A DNA stretch of 11,711 bases, taken from assembly GCA_021785115.1 (NCBI GenBank), contig JAJYGO010000213.1, forward strand, positions 1 to 11,711, read 5' to 3'. The translations under genes and the position numbers were made by a program. The notes beneath the pieces were generated by a model. The model was not told the DNA's origin. It did not search any database and worked only from the letters and a program-made list of their open reading frames with translations. Origin of the DNA: Chloroflexota bacterium (GTDB taxonomy: Bacteria; Chloroflexota; Limnocylindria; Limnocylindrales; CSP1-4). Of the stretch, positions 1 to 11,191 are shown piece by piece. Within the stretch, counting starts at the first letter, position 1. The number at the start of each line of letters is the position of its first letter.

Positions 1-1
1 G

Positions 2-1957
2 CCGGCCGCCGCGCAGGAGGGCTTCGAGATCGTCCGGCGGCGTCTGTTCGAGCCGATCGCCCCCGAGGCGGCCAGAGCGCGCGACGAGGTCGTCCAGCGG
101 TTCTCCGAGCTGTACTCGGGGAACGCCGGCACGTTCCCCGCCGACACGAGGGAGAAGGCGTACCTGGAGCGCCTCCGGAACTGCTACCCGATCCACCCCG
201 AGCTGTTCGACCGGCTCTTCGACGACTGGTCGACGCTCGAGCGGTTCCAGCGGACCCGCGGCGTGCTCAAGCTGATGGCCGCGGTCGTCCACGCCCTCTG
301 GGAGAAGCAGGACGGCAACCTCCTGATCCTGCCCGCGGCGCTGCCGCTCGACGACACCGCGGTGCTGCCGCAGCTGACGCAGTACCTCGACGACAACTGG
401 CAGCCGATCGTCGAGGGCGACGTCGACGGGCCGTCGTCCCTGCCGCTGCGGCTCGACCGCGAGAACGGCGGCACGTACGGGCGCTACTCGGCGGCCCGGC
501 GTGTCGCGCGCACGGTCTTCCTCGGCTCGGCGCCGCTGCCGGCGGCCGCCAACCGCGGGATCGACGACAAGCGGATCCTGCTCGGCTCAGTGCAGCCCGG
601 CGAGACGCCGGCGACCTTCGGCGACGCACTCCGCAAGCTGGCCGGCCAGGCGACCTACCTCTACGAGAACGCCGGCCGCTACTGGTACTCGACCCAGCCG
701 TCGGTGAACCAGCTCGCGCGCGACCGGGCGGAGCAGCAGCCCGAGGACCGGGTCGAGCTCGAGATCGAGACGCGCCTCAAGAAGGCGCTCGCGGATCGCC
801 TGCCGTTCCACCGCGTCCACGCCGCGCCGCGCGACGCCTCCGACGTGCCCGACGAGGACGAGGTCGCGCTCGTCGCCCTGCGGCCGGAGCACCCGCACGA
901 CGCGAAGGGGGCGTCGTCGAAGGCGAAGGAGGCGGCGGCCGCGATCCTGGCCTCGCGGGGGGCCGGCACCCGGGTCAACAAGAACACGCTCGTGTTCCTG
1001 GCGCCCGACTCGCTGCGGCTCCCCGAGCTGAAGGACGCCGTCCGCCAGTTCAGGGCGTGGTCGTCGATCCTCGACGACGGCGATGCCGGACGGCTCAACC
1101 TCGACGCCTTCGGGAAGGCCCAGGCGAGGTCGCAGCGCGACGCCCTCGACGAGACCGTCAAGAACCGGATTCCCGAGACCTACCACTGGCTCCTCGTGCC
1201 GGAGCAGGCCGACACCCTCGCGCCGGTCGACTTCCGCCAGGTCAAGATCGCGCCCGGCCCGGACATCGCCGCGCGCGCGGCCGCCAAGCTGCGATCCGAG
1301 GAGCTGCTGATCACCCGGTACGGGGGCGTGAACCTGCGCCTCGTGCTCACCCAGACCCTCGGCGACTACTGGTCGGCCCACCACGCGGTCGGGCTCAAGG
1401 AGCTGTGGGGCTGGTTCGCCCAGTACCCGTACCTGCCGCGCCTGCTCGACATCAGCGTGCTCGAGGGCGCGGTCGAGGACGGCGCCGGCAACCTGCTGTG
1501 GCGCTCTGAGACGTTCGCGTACGCGGCCGCCCGCGAGAGCGGCGGATCGTACATGGGGATCGTCGCCGGCCGCCGCGCGCCAACGCCGGTGACGTCGACC
1601 AGCGTGGTGGTTGACGGGTCAGTCCTGCCGGACCCGCTCCCCGGCGCCGAGCCGACGAAGCCGCTGGTCCCGGGACCTGCACTCGGTCCTAGTCCGGAGC
1701 CCACCGCGCAGGCCATCCGCCGCTTCCACGGCCAGGCCGTCCTCTCGGACCCGCGCACGCCGATCCCAGAACTCCAGAAGCTCGTGGCCGAGATCATCGG
1801 CCCGCTCGCGGCCCAGACCGACGTGAGCCTCACCGTCCGCGTCGAGGTCGAGGCCGACCACCGGGCCGAGGACGGCTTCAGCGACCAGACCATCCGCACC
1901 GTCTCGGAGAACGCGCGCACCCTGCGCCTCCGCGACTTCGGCTTCGACAAGGACTGA
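2..1957 (+). CDS. DUF499-family protein, C-terminal 651 residues (5' end off the window)
   Basis: The frame is open from the first complete codon to the TGA at 1955-1957, so the gene starts before the window; the first in-window ATG is internal. Recognisable DUF499 (PF04465) segments, in window residues: YPIHPELFDRL (about 62-72) followed by FQRTRG (82-87), which closes the AAA+-like part of this family; a central region with FLGSAPLP and a YENAGRYWYS segment; a Pro-rich linker at roughly 540-570; and a conserved tail ending in TVSENARTLRLRDFGF. Family members are usually about 1000 residues, so the Walker A/B motifs should lie upstream. DUF499 genes are often found with DUF1156 methylase-like genes in defence-type loci (established association). 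The biochemical role is not settled, and I infer an ATP-dependent anti-phage component. Codons end almost always in G or C, more so than in the next two genes, which suggests a separate module from the downstream operon. Confidence 0.85.
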   Translation, partial: PAAAQEGFEIVRRRLFEPIAPEAARARDEVVQRFSELYSGNAGTFPADTREKAYLERLRNCYPIHPELFDRLFDDWSTLERFQRTRGVLKLMAAVVHALWEKQDGNLLILPAALPLDDTAVLPQLTQYLDDNWQPIVEGDVDGPSSLPLRLDRENGGTYGRYSAARRVARTVFLGSAPLPAAANRGIDDKRILLGSVQPGETPATFGDALRKLAGQATYLYENAGRYWYSTQPSVNQLARDRAEQQPEDRVELEIETRLKKALADRLPFHRVHAAPRDASDVPDEDEVALVALRPEHPHDAKGASSKAKEAAAAILASRGAGTRVNKNTLVFLAPDSLRLPELKDAVRQFRAWSSILDDGDAGRLNLDAFGKAQARSQRDALDETVKNRIPETYHWLLVPEQADTLAPVDFRQVKIAPGPDIAARAAAKLRSEELLITRYGGVNLRLVLTQTLGDYWSAHHAVGLKELWGWFAQYPYLPRLLDISVLEGAVEDGAGNLLWRSETFAYAAARESGGSYMGIVAGRRAPTPVTSTSVVVDGSVLPDPLPGAEPTKPLVPGPALGPSPEPTAQAIRRFHGQAVLSDPRTPIPELQKLVAEIIGPLAAQTDVSLTVRVEVEADHRAEDGFSDQTIRTVSENARTLRLRDFGFDKD

Positions 1958-2073
1958 CCAAAGGGACGTCCGTGGAGGCACTGAAGGTCGATCCTGCCGT
2001 CTTGTTCGGCGTCATCGGCTGCAGGCCTGCCTCGGGTCTTCTGGTGGACCATCCGCCGATCGCCAAGCGCGAT

Positions 2074-2097
2074 GCGGCCGGGACGTTGCCCGGCCGC
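2074..2097 (+). terminator. 9-bp perfect hairpin between DUF499 gene and gajA
   Basis: GCGGCCGGG at 2074-2082 and CCCGGCCGC at 2089-2097 are exact reverse complements with a 6-nt loop. The hairpin lies 116 nt after the DUF499 stop and ends 31 nt before the chosen start of the OLD gene. No T tract follows. It could end DUF499 transcription, attenuate the downstream operon, or bind a regulator. It also argues against an earlier in-frame ATG at 2072, which would place the stem inside the coding region. Confidence 0.45.
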
Positions 2098-2118
2098 GGG
2101 TGCGCTCTCACACGAAGC

Positions 2119-2126
2119 AGGGGGAG
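2119..2126 (+). promoter_or_regulatory. Ribosome binding site deciding the gajA start
   Basis: AGGGGGAG sits two bases before the ATG at 2129, with its purine core about 5-8 nt from the start. The alternative in-frame ATG at 2072 lacks a comparable site and falls on the hairpin. The protein from 2129 begins MRVRRLTIHRFRGI, the usual first strand of OLD/SMC-type ATPases, which supports this choice. Confidence 0.7.
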
Positions 2127-2128
2127 CC

Positions 2129-3958
2129 ATGCGCGTGCGAAGGCTGACTATCCATCGCTTCCGTGGCATCGAGGACCTGACGATCTGCCCGACGGCGAGA
2201 AATGTCCTTGTCGGCCCGAACAACGCCGGGAAGAGCACAGTTCTGGAAGCCTTGGACCTTGCGCTCCACCCTGGCCTTGGACGTCCCCGCGCGGCGCCCA
2301 CCGAGGTCGACTATTACGATCGCGACCCGGCGCCAGGCTTCGAGATTGAGGTTGTGGTCGGCGACCTGACGGACGCGTTTCTCGCAGAATCCGCGGAGGC
2401 GCTCGAGGGCTGGCGCGACGAGGATCAAGATGTGGTCGCCGAGGTCGACGGCGACGGGATCGAGCCCTGCATTCGGCTGCGGGTCCTAGGCCTCCCAGAC
2501 CTCGAGGTCGTCCATGAGCACGCCAAGCCGGAGTTAGCGGGCGTCCGCTTCGGCCAGCGCTTGCGAGCGCGCCTCGGTTGGGTGTTTGACGGACGCCTGC
2601 GCGAGCCGTCCCGGCAGCTCGCCTTCTATCAGGGCGGAGTGCTCGACCGCCTCTTCGCCGATGCGGACCTAGACCCGGCACTGACGCTTCTTCGCGATGC
2701 GCTGGGCAAGGGCGCCGAGGGCCTGAATGCGGAGACAGCGGTGGTCGGGGTCCTAGACGCGCTCCGAGATGAGCTGGCCCCACTCGGTCTCGAGCCGGGA
2801 GGCGCACCGGAACTCGAAGCAGGTGCTGTCTCCAACCGGGAGCTGCTCCAGGCGCTGCGGCTCGCCATGCCCGGGCCCGCCACCCGGGCCATCCCGCTCG
2901 CCCGCGCGGGGCGCGGAACCCAACGGCTCGTCCTACTGGCGACGCTGCTGATGCTCGCGAGGCGGGACACGGCCCGACCCGTGATTGGTGGATTCGAGGA
3001 ACCGGAGGAGGCCGTCGAGCCGCTCCGGCAACTGCAGGCCGGCAGGATGATCCGCGAGCTTGCCGACAACGGCGGTCAGGTGTTCGTCTCGACTCACTCG
3101 CCGGACATCATTCGAGCGTTCGACTCCGACGACTTGGTGGTGATGGAACGCACCGGGACCGTGCGCGCGCGCCGCCTCAGCCTGACCAGCGCCGGCAAGC
3201 ATGGGTACGAGCGCCGGCTCGACTGGCCGCTGATCCGCGGGCTCTTCCTGCAGTACCCGATAGTCGTTGAGGGCGTGAGCGACCGAGTGGTCTTCACGGT
3301 GTTCTGGGACGCCCTCGCCGAGTCCGGAAAGGTGTCGCGCGCCGAACAACGAGGCCTCGAGTGCATCTCCGCGGAGGGCAACAGCAACATCCCGATGGCG
3401 CTGATGGTCCTCAGCGAGATGGGCAGGCTCCCGGTCGCCGTCGTCGAACGCGACCAGCCACGGGAGGCCGACCGGATCCTGGCATCGGGCCACGCTCGTG
3501 CCCTGATCGTGTACCCGGATGACCCAGCCGCCAACAACCTCGAGCGGCTACTCGCCATGAGTACGCCGCTCGATGCGCTTGCGGGCGCCATGACGGCCGT
3601 TGCCGACGACCGCGGCGACGACTGGGGCGCCCAGCGCGCAGACCTCGTCGAGCGGGCGCTGGCTGCGGGGCTGACAACCGATGAGCGTGACGCCATCGCG
3701 GGCACGTCGAGCCTGCGCGACGCTTTCGCGGTCGGGGGCGAGGCCGAGACCAGGCGCTTGGTCGCTTTGTGCATCGGGGCGAAGGAGCCACCGTGCCCAT
3801 TCGAGATCAAAGGAGGGCGGAACGCGCGCGTACTCGCCGAGTCGATCGTGGCTATGAGCGGCGTGCCGTCGCCCTTCGCTCGTGCCCTAGGGGCCCTCGG
3901 CGCCTGGATCGCCGCTGGCTCGCCAGACAGCTCCCGAATCGACATTACGGTGACATGA
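2129..3958 (+). CDS. gajA: Gabija-like GajA: OLD-family ATPase with TOPRIM nuclease domain
   Basis: This 609-residue protein is predicted to be the DNA-nicking/cleaving subunit of a Gabija anti-phage complex in the cytoplasm. The N-terminal ABC-type ATPase has Walker A GPNNAGKST (29-37), a signature-like RAGRGTQRL region (about 265-275), Walker B with catalytic acid FEEPE (289-293) and H-loop THSP (322-325). The C-terminal TOPRIM domain opens with VVEGVSDR (E381, D385), followed by VAVVERDQ (E440, D442) and a late lysine in FEIKGG (K561). Known GajA proteins are about 580 residues with ATPase then TOPRIM, and use TOPRIM acidic residues for metal-dependent cleavage regulated by nucleotides. 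Oddities: the usual DxD reads ERD, the preceding GGK-like segment reads EGN, and the DLE-like segment reads NLE, so nuclease activity may be altered. Its TGA overlaps the helicase ATG. Codons ending in A or T are more frequent than in the flanking genes, suggesting transfer. The class 2 OLD plus UvrD pairing makes the family call strong. Confidence 0.9.
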   Translation: MRVRRLTIHRFRGIEDLTICPTARNVLVGPNNAGKSTVLEALDLALHPGLGRPRAAPTEVDYYDRDPAPGFEIEVVVGDLTDAFLAESAEALEGWRDEDQDVVAEVDGDGIEPCIRLRVLGLPDLEVVHEHAKPELAGVRFGQRLRARLGWVFDGRLREPSRQLAFYQGGVLDRLFADADLDPALTLLRDALGKGAEGLNAETAVVGVLDALRDELAPLGLEPGGAPELEAGAVSNRELLQALRLAMPGPATRAIPLARAGRGTQRLVLLATLLMLARRDTARPVIGGFEEPEEAVEPLRQLQAGRMIRELADNGGQVFVSTHSPDIIRAFDSDDLVVMERTGTVRARRLSLTSAGKHGYERRLDWPLIRGLFLQYPIVVEGVSDRVVFTVFWDALAESGKVSRAEQRGLECISAEGNSNIPMALMVLSEMGRLPVAVVERDQPREADRILASGHARALIVYPDDPAANNLERLLAMSTPLDALAGAMTAVADDRGDDWGAQRADLVERALAAGLTTDERDAIAGTSSLRDAFAVGGEAETRRLVALCIGAKEPPCPFEIKGGRNARVLAESIVAMSGVPSPFARALGALGAWIAAGSPDSSRIDITVT

Positions 3959-5649
3959 CTGTCCGGGCTGACCCGGAGCAGGAACGCGTGCTTGCGTCTC
4001 CGGCCCGACATTTGGTCGTGGTGGCCCCGCCGGGGACGGGCAAGACCTCCCTCGCGGCACGGCTTGCCGCTGAGCGGGCCAGAGGCATAGGCGAACACCA
4101 ACGCGTCCTCCTGTTGACGTTCAGCAATCAGGCCCGCAGCGAACTCGAGCGGGAGGTCGCGTCGCACGTCCCGACAGCACTGCGGCGCCGCGTGGAGGTC
4201 ACCAACTATCACCGTTTCTTCTGGGGGCTCACGCTTCGATACCGTCGCGTCCTCGAGCTGCCGGAGCTGCTCACCATCGTGAGTAGCAGACGCAGGGAGG
4301 CTGTCATCCGGGGGGCGACACGACATCACGCTCTGCTCGGCGCGCTCGACGAATGCGCCGAGTTGCTCGTGCCGGCGATGCGACCCGCGCCGACGGCCCT
4401 CAATGAGGCAGAACTGGCGCGAGTCCTCGCGGCAGTGCGTCGGGAGCATGCGGAAGGTCGGCTGGTGTTCGGAGACTTCGGCGCCTTCTGGGCTCTTCTC
4501 GTGACCAGGCAGCCGACCCTGCGTCGTGCGCTCAGGGAGCGGTACCCGGTGGTCATCGCCGACGAGCACCAGGATGCGTCGCAGATGCAGGAGGCTCTCG
4601 TCCGCGAACTAGGCACCTCGCACGTCATCTTCGCTGACCCGATGCAGCTCATCCACGCCTTCCGCGGCGCAGACTGGGGGCGCCTCGAGGGCCACATGCG
4701 CGACGCCGACGAGATCGTCGAAATCGCGACGCCACACCGCTGGCATGACAGCCCCGCGCTCGGGAGCTGGCTCCTTGAGACGCGCGACCGGCTGCGCGGC
4801 GACCACCGACGCGGAGCACGTCCGCCGGAGGTGGTCATCACCCTCACCGCTCCGGCGCACGGTACCAACGGCATGCTCGGTGCGCTGCCGGCCGCGATCC
4901 GGCGCGCGAGACAGGACGGCGCGCGATCCATAGCAGTCATGGCGTGGCAGAACGGGCTCGTGGCAGACGTGCGCCGGTATCTGTGTCGTCACGGGATGAG
5001 ACCGGCTCAGCTCGGGATCTGGCACGCGTTCGACCGCCTCGTCGAGTTGCCCGAGCAGCTTGAGGGAAAGGAGCCGAAGGCGGTCGCCGCGATGATCGTG
5101 GACACCCTGGCCGCCCTGGCTCCGCAGATCACCGCTGACGATGTCTCGCGTGCGAGGGCACGCCTCAAGGTGTCGGGAGTGCGGGGGGCAGGGGCTAGCG
5201 TTACGGTGGCGTCAATGCTTGCCGGAGCGGACGCGGGGTACCGCCTCGGGCCGGGGGGATACTTTGCGGGTGTCGCCGTCGGAGTCGACGCCTTGGCGAG
5301 ACAGGGGATCCACGCCCCTGCGCTCGAGGAGGTCTCACTGTACCGACGGGCTGCCGCGGGGTCTGATCTCTCGGCGCAGATCGACCTGTTTCGATCAGCG
5401 CTCATGGCGACCACGCATCGTGCGACCCGCGCGGATCGCGGCGTACTCACGATGACCGTGCACCAAGCAAAGGGGCGTGAGTTCGACGCTGTCGTACTAG
5501 TCGGAGCTGACGCCACGTCGTACCGATGGGAATCCGACGAAAGCGTCCGGCTCTTCTACGTGGCGATCACTCGTGCGCGAAAGCATTGGGAGATCATCGC
5601 GATACGTGGCCGCGAGTCGCGCTTGATCGACGCGCTCGGGACGACGTGA
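3955..5649 (+). CDS. gajB: Gabija-like GajB: UvrD/Rep-type superfamily 1A helicase
   Basis: This 564-residue SF1A helicase is predicted to partner the preceding OLD protein. Motifs in order: Q-motif PEQERVL (7-13), Walker A APPGTGKTS (24-32), motif Ia LLLTFSNQA, Walker B DEHQD (203-207, where DEAQD or DEFQD is commoner), motif III FADPMQLIHAFRGA (about 224-237), motif V TVHQAKGREF (501-510) and motif VI VAITRAR (536-542). All core helicase motifs are present, so an active enzyme is expected. Known GajB proteins are about 500 residues and assemble with GajA in a large complex that acts on phage DNA; helicase and DNA-sensing roles come from that family knowledge. I chose the ATG at 3955 because it overlaps the gajA stop as ATGA, the classic sign of translational coupling, and the protein then begins eight residues before the Q-motif Gln. 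The same frame runs further upstream inside gajA, but that part is out-of-frame noise. Confidence 0.9.
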   Translation: MTVRADPEQERVLASPARHLVVVAPPGTGKTSLAARLAAERARGIGEHQRVLLLTFSNQARSELEREVASHVPTALRRRVEVTNYHRFFWGLTLRYRRVLELPELLTIVSSRRREAVIRGATRHHALLGALDECAELLVPAMRPAPTALNEAELARVLAAVRREHAEGRLVFGDFGAFWALLVTRQPTLRRALRERYPVVIADEHQDASQMQEALVRELGTSHVIFADPMQLIHAFRGADWGRLEGHMRDADEIVEIATPHRWHDSPALGSWLLETRDRLRGDHRRGARPPEVVITLTAPAHGTNGMLGALPAAIRRARQDGARSIAVMAWQNGLVADVRRYLCRHGMRPAQLGIWHAFDRLVELPEQLEGKEPKAVAAMIVDTLAALAPQITADDVSRARARLKVSGVRGAGASVTVASMLAGADAGYRLGPGGYFAGVAVGVDALARQGIHAPALEEVSLYRRAAAGSDLSAQIDLFRSALMATTHRATRADRGVLTMTVHQAKGREFDAVVLVGADATSYRWESDESVRLFYVAITRARKHWEIIAIRGRESRLIDALGTT

Positions 5650-5834
5650 TCACCGCTTAGCGCACCATCCCCGGCGCGAAGCAGGGTCGGCCGCGCGTCG
5701 CACGAGTGTGTCGCGATGCCAGGTTTGGTGTCAGGTCGGTGCGTGAAGTCATACCGTCCCTGACGCCCAGACCATAGGCGGTCCGTTGACAGATCCGGCG
5801 ATGCCCCGAGGCGCGTGCAGACGGGCCACGCGCT

Positions 5835-5860
5835 CCGACCCCGCCGCGCGGCGGGGTCGG
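5835..5860. repeat. Perfect 26-bp palindrome in the convergent gap
   Basis: The half-sites CCGACCCCGCCGC (5835-5847) and GCGGCGGGGTCGG (5848-5860) are exact reverse complements with no spacer. As RNA it would fold into an 11-bp GC-rich stem with a 4-nt CGCG loop in either direction. It sits between the helicase stop (5649) and the stop of the minus-strand TIR-like gene (5922), so a bidirectional terminator is the simplest reading, though there is no U tract. A dimeric protein binding site is the alternative. The rest of 5650-5834 shows no gene and no clear promoter. Confidence 0.6.
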
Positions 5861-5921: not shown

Positions 5922-7712
5922 CTAGAAGGCGGCGAACGCCGCGTACACCGCGTGCCGCTGACGCTCGTCGACGGCCGACACGGGCGCTCGCGCTGGCGCC
6001 ACAGCAGTCCTCACCCCCTCGTCCGGGTCTTGCTCGAGGGCTTCGAGGATGTCGAGCGGTACGGCTGCCGGCAGCCGCTCGGCGATGCGCGCCACGACGC
6101 CGGCGGCCCCCTCCCGCATCTCCGCCGATGGGCTCCCCGCCATCGCCAGGACCACGTCCCATGCCTCCGGGCGGCTGAGCGCGAGCTGCGCGAGGCATGC
6201 GCGCGCCGGCGTGTAGACGTACCAGGACTCCGCTGGCGCCGCGTCGCCCGTGGAGTCGACGAGGCGCGCGACCAGCGGCATCGGGACGAGGCCAGGGGCG
6301 CGGACCGCGCGGTCGTAGAGGATGACTGCAGCAGATGAGCGGACCGACGAGTCGCGGTGCCGCGACAGCTCGTCGACAACGCTGTCGGGCAGGAGCCCGA
6401 TCTCGAGCGCGGCCATGCGCTCGACGGCGTGGGAGGCGACCGACCGGTCCTCCCACTGCGGCGCGTTAAGCGCGACCGACACCATCAGCAAGGCGAGGGC
6501 CGCCCGTTCGCTGCTCGAGCGCCCCTCGAGCCACTCGAGCACGCGCCTGTATGTCCGGGCTGGATCTGTGACTGAGAGGCCGTCGATCATCGTGATCCCG
6601 TCGGCCAGCTCCGGGCTGATCGCAGCCTCGGCCGGGCGCCTCGGCGGGTCGGGGATAGCGAACCCCCACTCGCGGAGCTGGGCGAGCGCGGCGTCGAACG
6701 CCGCACCCGGGTCGCCCGCGTCGAGCTGCTCGTAGACCGGGGCGATGTTGCTCGGCAGCTGCGCGGCGTGCTCCTTGAGCACACAGATGCGGTCCCGCAG
6801 GCCAGCCGTGGCGCGCGCCCTCCCGATCTCGTCGGCGATGTTGGGGCGCGGGTGGAGCCGGCCTGCATCGTCGAGGAGGTCGCCTGTGACGATGGCGACC
6901 ATGGCGTCGGATCCCTCGAGGTAGGCGACGACCTTGTCCTCCGGCGTCCAGGCACCGCCGGGCCGCGGCAGGTCGCTGACGATGCGGACCTCGACGCCGT
7001 TCGCCTCGAGCAGGTCGCGGAGCGGGTGGGCGAGGCTCCGCTTGTGCCCCTCCGCGACGCTGATGAACACGGAGCGGCGCCGCGGCGGAGCTGGCGGCTC
7101 CGCGAGCGCGGGGTGCACAGGCGCCTCCACCACGGCGGACTCGTACGGCCATGTCGATGCCGGGAACCCCGGCAGCGGGAGCGCGCCAAGTAGCTGCTCG
7201 ACCGTCTGGATGTCCTTGAGCTGGCGGATCGCCATGCCGATGGTGACGGTCCACGGCCTGTCCGGGCCGCCCGAGATGCTCATCCAGCCCGGCAGCCGGT
7301 CCATCAACGCGCGGACGCGCCGGACCCTGATGTCGTCCGCGCCGCAGGCCTCGGCGAACTCGTCGCTGGTCAGCGTGGCGTTCACGCCCTGATCGAGCCA
7401 CCGCACATACTCGGACCTCACGAGGCAGAGGAGATCGCCGAGAACTTGCTCGCCCCCCTCGCACACCGACACGCCGTGGATCGTGAGCGTTGCCCTCCCG
7501 TCGACGCTGGTCAGGTCAAACTGCGCGAGCACCCGGCTCACGCCTGCAGCGACGCCGGCCACGTCGAGGTCGTCCCCTGACCGCGCCAGCGCGTGCTGCA
7601 GCTCTGCGACCAGCGGCCATTCCGCCGTCGAGAGGAACCGGTCGAGCGCGGCCTGGAGGAGCCGGCGCTCGGATCCGTTGATGACGCGGAAGTCGCGATC
7701 GTCGATAACCAT
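5922..7712 (-). CDS. TIR-like domain protein with N-terminal helical region and C-terminal HEAT-like repeats
   Basis: This 596-residue protein has three parts. Residues 1-190 are helical with a winged-helix-like pattern ending in RQLKDIQTVEQLL (163-175). I recall similar N-termini in multidomain proteins of bacterial defence loci, but have no firm name. Residues 213-352 resemble the predicted nucleotide-binding TIR-like family (PF10137): RRSVFISVAEGH, an alternating beta/alpha pattern, AMVAIVTGDLL, then RPNIADEIG (289-297) and RDRICVLKE...LPSNI. E295 sits where that family carries the conserved Glu of the NVxFELG motif, the likely NADase residue. Residues about 385-570 form HEAT-like repeats, including HRDSSVRSSAAVILYDRA, SPSAEMREGAAGVVARIAER and QDPDEGVRTAVA. 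No signal peptide or membrane segment is seen. Inference: the HEAT part senses or scaffolds and the TIR part degrades NAD+ or a nucleotide, as in abortive infection. The ATG at 7712 is chosen because the only earlier in-frame start seen is a TTG at 7940 with non-protein-like sequence after it. The ribosome binding site is weak. The gene converges with the Gabija operon. Confidence 0.75.
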   Translation of the reverse strand: MVIDDRDFRVINGSERRLLQAALDRFLSTAEWPLVAELQHALARSGDDLDVAGVAAGVSRVLAQFDLTSVDGRATLTIHGVSVCEGGEQVLGDLLCLVRSEYVRWLDQGVNATLTSDEFAEACGADDIRVRRVRALMDRLPGWMSISGGPDRPWTVTIGMAIRQLKDIQTVEQLLGALPLPGFPASTWPYESAVVEAPVHPALAEPPAPPRRRSVFISVAEGHKRSLAHPLRDLLEANGVEVRIVSDLPRPGGAWTPEDKVVAYLEGSDAMVAIVTGDLLDDAGRLHPRPNIADEIGRARATAGLRDRICVLKEHAAQLPSNIAPVYEQLDAGDPGAAFDAALAQLREWGFAIPDPPRRPAEAAISPELADGITMIDGLSVTDPARTYRRVLEWLEGRSSSERAALALLMVSVALNAPQWEDRSVASHAVERMAALEIGLLPDSVVDELSRHRDSSVRSSAAVILYDRAVRAPGLVPMPLVARLVDSTGDAAPAESWYVYTPARACLAQLALSRPEAWDVVLAMAGSPSAEMREGAAGVVARIAERLPAAVPLDILEALEQDPDEGVRTAVAPARAPVSAVDERQRHAVYAAFAAF

Positions 7713-9699: not shown

Positions 9700-9752
9700 G
9701 TTTGCACGTCGCCGCCACCGACCACGGAGGGCCGACCCGCGTGCGTGCAAAC
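9700..9752. repeat. 9-bp inverted repeat upstream of the 9046-9645 gene
   Basis: GTTTGCACG (9700-9708) and CGTGCAAAC (9744-9752) are exact reverse complements separated by 35 bp. They lie 55-107 bp upstream of the GTG at 9645 and between it and the tRNA gene. The spacing suits an operator bound by a protein at two sites better than a terminator. No function can be assigned. Confidence 0.4.
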
Positions 9753-10035: not shown

Positions 10036-10225
10036 GCGGACGCGACGCCCGGGACGGGGGCGGCCGGCCGGCTTGACCGAGGGACGTCAGCCAAACCGGC
10101 GCCGCGGGTGGTACCGGGGTCCCGCCGCTCCCGGGGACCTGTGGGCCAGCGAAGTGCGGCACGGTGGGGTTCACCATGGCGGATGCCGGCCCCCCGACCG
10201 GCCCTGCCTAGGAGCCTCCACCGGC

Positions 10226-11191
10226 ATGACGCTGCCCGCCAGCCCCGTCCGCACCCTCCGCCGGTTCGACGCGCGCCGCCTGGCGGTCGTGCTCGCGGTT
10301 GTGTTCGCGGTGACCAGCGTGGAGCTGGCGGCGGTGCCGTCGGTCCTGGGCTGGGACGCCAACACCTTCAGCGCATCGTCGGAGAGCCAGCTGATCGCGC
10401 TGCAGAACCAGGCGCGCGCCTCCGCAGGCCTGCGCTCGCTCAGCCTCGACACGGCGCTGCGCACGATCGCGCGCTGGCGCAGCCAGGACATGATCGAGCG
10501 CAACTACTTCTCGCACACGATCCTGGGCACTACCCACAACGTGTTCTGGTACATGCAGTTCCAGTACGGGTACTGCTTCAAGGTGGCGGGCGAGAACATC
10601 GGCACCGTGACCTGGCCCGGCGCGTCGGAGGCCGACGCGACCAACTGGGTGTTCCAGCAGTTCATGAACTCGCCCACCCACCGCGCGAACATCCTGGGCA
10701 GCGCCTGGGACGTGGTCGCCGTGGGCGCGTACAAGGGCACGGGCGACGAGTTCATGTGGACCGTCCTGTTCGCCGACAAGTGCAGCGCCGCGGCGCCGAC
10801 CCCGACCCCCACCCCGAAGCCGACGGCCAAGCCCACGCCGAAGCCGACGCTGCAGCCGACGCCGCGACCGACCCCGAAGCCGACGTCCCGGCCCACCGCC
10901 AGGCCCACCCCGACGCTGGCGCCGACCCAGCCGACCGCCCCCGCGCCGACCCCGTCGCCAACGCTCACACCGTCGCCCAGTCCCACCGCCGGGCCCGACA
11001 CGGGCGCGCTCGCGACGCCCCAGCCGGAGGCCCCGACACCGTCGCCCAGCGCGGCCCCCAGCGCGGCCGCCACCCCAGCCCCCACGCCGTTCGTCCCGCC
11101 GGGCGGGCTCCAGATCAAGGACCCGCCGCCCCAGGGCGGCCTCATCGAGTCCATCCTGCAGGCGATCGCGGCCCGGTTCTTCGGCGGGTGA
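10226..11191 (+). CDS. Secreted CAP/SCP1-like protein with Pro/Thr-rich tail
   Basis: This 321-residue protein starts with a basic N-terminus ([10 protein letters not shown]) followed by a hydrophobic segment (about 19-40), a signal peptide or membrane anchor, so it acts outside the membrane. Residues about 52-186 are a CAP (SCP/PR-1, YkwD-like) domain with the usual cavity residues: H97 in YFSHTI, E123 in GENIG and H152 in [10 protein letters not shown]117 and C186 may form a disulfide. Residues about 191-290 are a Pro/Thr/Lys/Ala-rich spacer, probably wall-spanning or glycosylated. The protein ends with a short helix-like tail, [18 protein letters not shown], after a Gly/Pro turn. Bacterial CAP proteins are mostly of unknown activity. 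The ATG at 10226 is preferred: AGGAG lies 11 nt upstream and the signal segment follows closely, whereas earlier in-frame sequence is not protein-like. A 6-bp hairpin straddles the stop (11181-11197). Codon use is typical for the genome, so a core gene is likely. Confidence 0.92.
10796..11092 (+). repeat. Low-complexity Pro/Thr-coding repeat tract
   Basis: Degenerate reiterations of units such as CCGACCCCGACC and CCGAAGCCGACG encode [14 protein letters not shown] sequence, grading into PSP and PSA repeats toward the end. It lies wholly inside the CAP protein gene. Such tracts vary in length by slippage. Confidence 0.8.

Follow-up and report, generated by a model that had tools for sequence, protein, structure and literature searches.

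A TIR protein with an N-terminal tandem winged-helix module and HEAT-like repeats in a Chloroflexota defence island

The gene and its product

The window analysed here is a stretch of 11,711 nucleotides on contig JAJYGO010000213.1 of a Chloroflexota bacterium, a metagenome-assembled genome that is 92% complete. Its minus strand carries a gene for a protein in which a TIR domain is found between an N-terminal predicted tandem winged helix, hereafter the N-module, and a C-terminus of HEAT/ARM-like repeats (Table 1). The gene lies in a defence island together with the Hma and Gabija systems. A preliminary description, made from the letters of the DNA, had placed the gene at the same coordinates; the frame has its ATG at 7712-7710 and a stop codon ending at 5922, and its product has 596 residues. 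A longer frame with a TTG start (to 7940) was disfavoured and the ATG was chosen, because the relatives P0002 and P0003 begin level with it. A promoter and terminator scan of the locus found none.

Searches of NCBIfam and PHROGs gave no usable match for the protein, and PADLOC gave a weak one, within the HEAT part. Sequence searches of the PDB were without matches in one case and otherwise yielded weak matches (E 0.098 or worse), the best two of one search being the molecular chaperone Tir (E 0.24) and the NAD(+) hydrolase AbTIR (E 0.34).

Table 1. Features of the window, in order of position
Feature	Position	Strand	Remarks
hmaC, 3' part	1..1957	plus	gene starts about 1.3 kb before the window; PADLOC HmaC 1.2e-289 (whole 1088-residue protein)
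gajA	2072..3958	plus	PADLOC GajA 3.4e-49
gajB	3955..5649	plus	PADLOC GajB 1.7e-48; ATG overlaps the gajA stop by 4 base pairs
N-module/PCTIR-type TIR/HEAT-like repeats, whole gene	5922..7712	minus	596 residues; start fixed by P0002 and P0003
HEAT/ARM-like repeats	5949..6620	minus	residues 365-588; helices in the model; ARM/importin/TOG fold matches; relative L062 over HEAT_2 cut-off
TIR domain	6657..7079	minus	residues 212-352; PF10137 over cut-off; Foldseek/VIA-align match to SfTIR-STING (7un8)
E295 codon, candidate catalytic Glu	6828..6830	minus	invariant, 27/27 rows; R-x-N-x3-E spacing as SfSTING R78, N80, E84
R289-P290-N291 codons, candidate NAD-binding residues	6840..6848	minus	R 26/27, N 27/27; SfSTING R78, N80
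Linker	7080..7172	minus	residues about 181-211, mostly low confidence; predicted local distance difference test score (pLDDT) below 50 at 190-208
N-module, tandem winged helix	7173..7691	minus	residues about 8-180; AlphaFold2 model of the module alone; common to other effectors
Second winged helix	7215..7457	minus	residues 86-166, Arg-rich helix 127-137; from model secondary structure and sequence
First winged helix (MntR/DtxR/MarR-like)	7458..7679	minus	residues 12-85

A TIR domain with a candidate active site

Residues 212-352 form a TIR domain of the CAP12/Pycsar type. In Pfam, PF10137 (CAP12-PCTIR_TIR) matches residues 215-324 with 28.2 bits (cut-off 24.7), and TIR_2 stays under its cut-off; the top fold match of the predicted model is the TIR of SfTIR-STING. 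The central domain had been described as TIR-like from the start, and its predicted fold is indeed that of a TIR and not otherwise.

The family placement also raises the reading that the protein serves CBASS or Pycsar as an effector under the control of a cyclic nucleotide; however, STING, SAVED and CNBD are absent from the Pfam matches at E up to 1, and no cyclase was found among the neighbours scanned, few of which lie after window position 9750, and we regard this reading as extremely improbable.

Of the 27 rows of the TIR alignment, 19 are database proteins (one of them the window's own), seven come from loci, and the last is L052, whose canonical PF10137 part came in via the multiple alignment and was not reached by the single-sequence search with the window's TIR. 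In all 27 rows E295, N291, T276 and S321 are invariant, so that the Glu first singled out as the candidate catalytic residue, within N-I-A-D-E-I-G, is conserved throughout; R289 is kept in 26 rows, and F216 and an aromatic residue at 255 (Trp or Phe) are largely conserved. The corresponding site in SfSTING comprises S10, R78, N80, the catalytic E84 and, contributed by the other subunit of the dimer, D110 (PMC9402430; for all papers cited here by such numbers, statements refer to parts of the text). R289, N291 and E295 share with R78, N80 and E84 the spacing R-x-N-x3-E, a correspondence of sequence and spacing, and these three residues may form an NADase-pattern site and are candidates for a catalytic role. 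It appears very improbable that the TIR-like domain is instead a nucleoside 2-deoxyribosyltransferase, or an N-glycosidase, acting on (deoxy)nucleoside monophosphates and not on nicotinamide adenine dinucleotide (NAD+).

The HEAT-like C-terminus

The HEAT-like nature of the C-terminus, also part of the preliminary description, is recognised by Pfam below the cut-off in the window protein (HEAT_2, 17.5 versus 27.7 bits) and above it in the relative L062 (34.5 bits), in line with the ARM/HEAT-like shape of the predicted model. At L066:829-2355 a HEAT-domain relative stands behind a different N-terminal part, nuclease-like by eye. Because L066 joins it to another N-terminus, the HEAT part may, like the N-module, be exchangeable between proteins.

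The N-module: structure

Modelled alone with AlphaFold2, the N-module reaches a pLDDT of 90.4 and a predicted template modelling score (pTM) of 0.86. The N-terminal region is thus a distinct part, as had been proposed, but it is not simply helical: helices and beta-wings together make up a tandem winged helix. It has no match in any family library searched. The top rows of the Foldseek search include Wadjet JetABC chains and arginine repressors, and since all rows have E >0.001, no fold family beyond the winged helix was assigned; the VIA-align rows cover mainly residues 4-85, so that the fold search hardly probes the second winged helix. The winged-helix fold of the model is what one would expect if the N-module were a DNA-binding repressor, and it may be one, but 27 of the 28 modules compared are net acidic, which argues against it.

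Relatives and domain architectures

The protein search returned 19 proteins, the window's own included. The N-module/TIR/HEAT arrangement is found in four of these (P0001-P0004), whereas five others (P0005-P0009, 368-389 residues) are TIR-HEAT proteins that lack the N-module; a further nine (P0010-P0012, P0014-P0019) are alpha/beta-hydrolase/TIR fusions of a sister lineage. The loci add four TIR-HEAT proteins (L003, L062, L063, L083) and three hydrolase-TIR proteins (L004 at 4502-5842, L005, L065). P0013 has the same TIR type, a third kind of N-terminus and a C-terminus of no recognised kind. As TIR-HEAT proteins exist without the N-module, we regard TIR-HEAT as the core to which the N-module was added. 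The full TIR-HEAT protein occurs in 2 of 271 genomes, the window's included, and a hydrolase-TIR protein is also present in G051, a genome of the same family. Genome G296 encodes the N-module protein L054 and, on another contig, the TIR-HEAT protein L083 without N-module.

In the hydrolase-TIR fusions, those of the loci L004, L005 and L065 included, the presumed nucleophile elbow reads GYYSS or GYYYS; in all nine database proteins it is, by inspection, L-L-G-Y-Y and not G-x-S-x-G, and this replacement suggests that the hydrolase part is a ligand-binding pseudoenzyme; most of the nine have other G-x-S-x-G strings elsewhere. The C-terminal end of the close hydrolase relatives L008-L010, L016 and L019 was read as a LuxR-type helix-turn-helix (HTH).

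The N-module: spread and partner domains

The N-module was traced with residues 1-200, then with a profile, and then with a wider profile built partly from the hits of the first. The search with residues 1-200 found it ahead of Abi_C in P0020 (48% identical) and ahead of TIR_2 in P0021. Of 400 genomes of the phylum, 12 were matched by the first profile, counting the window's own and two that were dropped later, and 24 by the wider one, again with the own genome. The wider profile also matched in 2 of the 296 genomes surveyed from the phylum to which L003 belongs; a search of the L003 genome itself found no N-module. A further search added one N-module fragment and zero new partners. The window's genome has a single copy. 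The partners in the 37 N-module proteins examined are given in Table 2.

Table 2. Partner domains of the N-module
Partner	Proteins	Remarks
PCTIR-HEAT	4/37	
Abi_C	1/37	
TIR_2	1/37	
AAA_21	1/37	
Ymh	3/37	
Deoxyribosyltransferase-like	3/37	Pfam cut-off: one over, one just below, one far below
Class III cyclase (apparent)	13/37	
Canonical PF10137	1/37	L052, 78.4 bits
Unannotated C-terminus, common by eye	5/37	L053, L054, L055, L058, L059
Other unannotated	3/37	
None or truncated	2/37	

The thirteen apparent cyclase proteins (L029, L042-L051, L056, L057) belong to one Chloroflexota family and have the N-module between an unnamed N-terminal domain and a class III cyclase-looking domain. Pfam was applied to two of them (L042, 21.6 bits versus 21.9; L029, cut by the contig end, no match), the others being called by similarity to L042, and their modules form a long branch in the tree and are the least certain members. 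The C-terminus shared by five proteins has no Pfam match in L054 and L055, the two tested. When PADLOC was run on the partner parts, P0020 was recognised as AbiJ, L021 as HEC-01A (1.3e-130; the next gene is HEC-01B), L052 as PDC-S35 and L023 as PD-Lambda-3_B; P0021 was matched by TIR models and L025 by a weak TIR model, and L022 and L071 had no match. At L077:7071-9546 there is a HEC-01A/HEC-01B pair whose ATPase has the N-module as an N-terminal addition.

In a tree built from 28 modules, P0020 is the first to join the group of the window (support 100/99), followed by P0021 (89/78) and then L021 (97/95), so that one close clade spans four different effector parts. Close copies precede Abi_C/AbiJ, TIR_2 and HEC-01A, and more distant ones Ymh, deoxyribosyltransferase-like domains, another PF10137 TIR and class III cyclases. 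Two independent fusions of the N-module to PF10137 TIRs are likely but not shown, because a single clade of the PCTIR-HEAT and L052 modules is not rejected by the approximately unbiased test (p 0.055). We tentatively propose, at somewhat short of even chances, that the N-module is a plug-in regulator not described before: a tandem winged helix that serves as input and is placed on existing immune effectors and on class III cyclases, in which the sensor would be constant and the weapon swapped. Its hosts in this survey are chiefly Chloroflexota.

Genomic neighbourhood

Upstream, on the same contig, follow in order ThiF with small neighbours, an HTH/M78 peptidase pair, HmaA, an ADP-ribosylglycohydrolase/phosphatase, HmaB, HmaC, GajA and GajB. 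Gabija had been reported as the neighbour, which it is; the TIR gene does not, however, share its operon, being convergent with gajB, with 272 base pairs between the two gene ends.

In L001:201-3351, upstream of Hma, the ThiF/E1-like gene has small neighbours that look E2- and ubiquitin-like by eye; after this group come the HTH gene and the M78 peptidase, the latter with a PADLOC match to capP. The gene between hmaA and hmaB (L001:7940-10381; window -6561 to -4120) encodes an ADP-ribosylglycohydrolase of 814 residues with a DSP-type phosphatase domain, and HmaC (L001:13192-16455) carries a HEPN_Swt1 domain at its N-terminus (84.8 bits in Pfam). On the other side, a CAP-domain protein (PF00188) with a Pro/Thr-rich tail at 10073-11191 is probably outside the island.

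For other N-module proteins, eight neighbourhoods were hand-picked among the 37, without a random control, and six of these (L077, L078, L085, L086, L087, L089) contain defence, restriction, SMC-like/nuclease or conjugation genes; none were recognised around L084 and L088, with no family search of the neighbours. At L078:1010-7639 an HmaA-like helicase, a phosphatase resembling PP2C (slightly under the Pfam cut-off) and an N-module/Ymh protein are consecutive.

Proposed function

We consider it probable, if by no means settled, that the protein is a one-gene abortive-infection NADase gated by the N-module and the HEAT repeats. What the computations show is a protein of three domains, one with the fold of a TIR and a conserved site, encoded within a defence island. 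By analogy with TIR-STING, PycTIR and DSR2 the HEAT repeats and the N-module are taken as the input, and NAD+ as the substrate, activation through assembly and protection against phage would likewise be expected. At rest, the N-module and the HEAT-like C-terminus would hold the TIR domains back from packing together. A signal linked to the invader, most probably a protein or complex from a phage or plasmid, would be bound by the HEAT groove, the N-module or both, upon which the protein would oligomerise, the TIR domains would pack, and E295 with R289 and N291 would cleave NAD+; its loss would then arrest or kill the cell before the invader spreads. It is assembly that activates TIR-STING and PycTIR (PMC9402430, PMC11224242), and in DSR2, an NADase fused with HTH and HEAT parts, the HEAT repeats contribute to a cavity that binds a partner (PMC11263360).

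Several observations weigh against this proposal. No equivalent of D110 of SfSTING was identified in the window protein, and at position 220, which corresponds by spacing to S10, 6 rows of 15 have Ala (the window's among them), 8 have Ser and one has a gap. Phage, plasmid and viral-contig searches gave no match for the gene, and the full-length model has a pTM of 0.58, too low to fix the mutual placing of the domains. Among the five TIR-HEAT neighbourhoods, those of the window and of L083 (type ISP restriction enzyme, Panacea) are defence-like and that of L074 holds an integrase gene, an rve gene of the transposase type, a DCD gene and a match to DUF3644 slightly under the cut-off; around L073 and L003, inspected mostly by eye, no gene of defence was recognised. 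The early suggestion of a single-gene immune effector is partly supported, and a place in a defence locus holds for the window and L083.

The neighbourhoods of L073 and L003 would also fit a role outside immunity, in the regulation of stress or metabolism, with the winged helices and HEAT repeats as the regulatory parts and a TIR fold that binds or processes a nucleotide; the apparent class III cyclases in 13 of the 37 N-module proteins and the LuxR-like HTH joined to the sister alpha/beta-hydrolase domain point in the same direction. Such a role is nevertheless unlikely in view of the window and L083 islands, the immune effector types among several other N-module partners, and the patchy distribution of the full TIR-HEAT protein.

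Alternatively, the TIR might make an ADP-ribose-derived messenger for another protein, as in Thoeris, the outcome being signalling and not depletion. TIR enzymes are able to do either (PMC13142454), and the island contains the ADP-ribosylglycohydrolase/phosphatase gene. The gene stands alone, however, no ThsA-like or other ADP-ribose receptor was found among the neighbours scanned, few of which lie after window position 9750, and the best fold match is an NAD+-depleting TIR (PMC13142454), which makes this quite unlikely.

Comparison with known systems

TIR NADases are known with inputs of the STING, SAVED, CNBD, APAZ and NLR types. If the proposed gating of the NADase holds, control of a TIR through HEAT repeats together with a shared winged-helix module would extend these inputs by a new type, contained in a single small gene. 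A literature search, at title and abstract level and mostly open-access, found no description of the N-module or of the N-module/TIR/HEAT arrangement, and no STING, SAVED, CNBD, SIR2 or APAZ part was found in the protein, in agreement with the original remark that the three-part arrangement is not known as a named system.

Membership of CBASS (Cap12), Pycsar, Thoeris and SPARTA was rejected because defining parts are missing: there is no fused STING or SAVED; a tandem winged helix takes the place of the N-terminal CNBD by which PycTIR is defined (PMC11224242); ThsB_TIR (PF08937) is not matched at E up to 1, and no ThsA was seen among the neighbours scanned, few of them after window position 9750; and neither an APAZ part nor a short Argonaute was found with PADLOC or Pfam in the protein at E up to 1 or in these neighbours. 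SfTIR-STING has STING where the window protein has the tandem winged helix and HEAT repeats, and no CD-NTase was seen among the scanned neighbours. With PycTIR the protein shares a PF10137-type TIR behind an N-terminal input domain; it differs in that domain and in the extra HEAT repeats, and lacks a neighbouring cyclase. DSR2 (SIR2-HTH-HEAT) likewise combines an NADase-type domain, an HTH and HEAT repeats, the last found here by model and fold match, but DSR2 has a SIR2 domain and about 1000 residues, whereas the window protein has a TIR, 596 residues and N-terminal winged helices.

The PADLOC candidate PDC-S35 matches the N-module protein L052 over its PF10137 part; the window protein has no such match at E up to 1 and carries HEAT repeats. 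HEC-01A-like and AbiJ/Abi_C parts stand behind the same N-module in L021 and P0020, but these are other effectors, matched by PADLOC only past the module. Effector-associated domains (EADs, as defined in PMC8195603) are, like the N-module, non-catalytic modules ahead of many effector types, but they are mostly small helical death-like domains; with its two winged helices and one copy in a 92%-complete genome, the N-module was set aside from them.

It appears that the protein would work like TIR-STING, PycTIR and DSR2 and yet is a member of none. Given the limits of the literature search, we describe it as a known kind of TIR effector in a new variant; the N-module is the new part of the finding. 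Should the N-module be a common sensor, knowing what it binds would make sense at once of several defence proteins that are otherwise unrelated, and its profile could be used to find more candidates.
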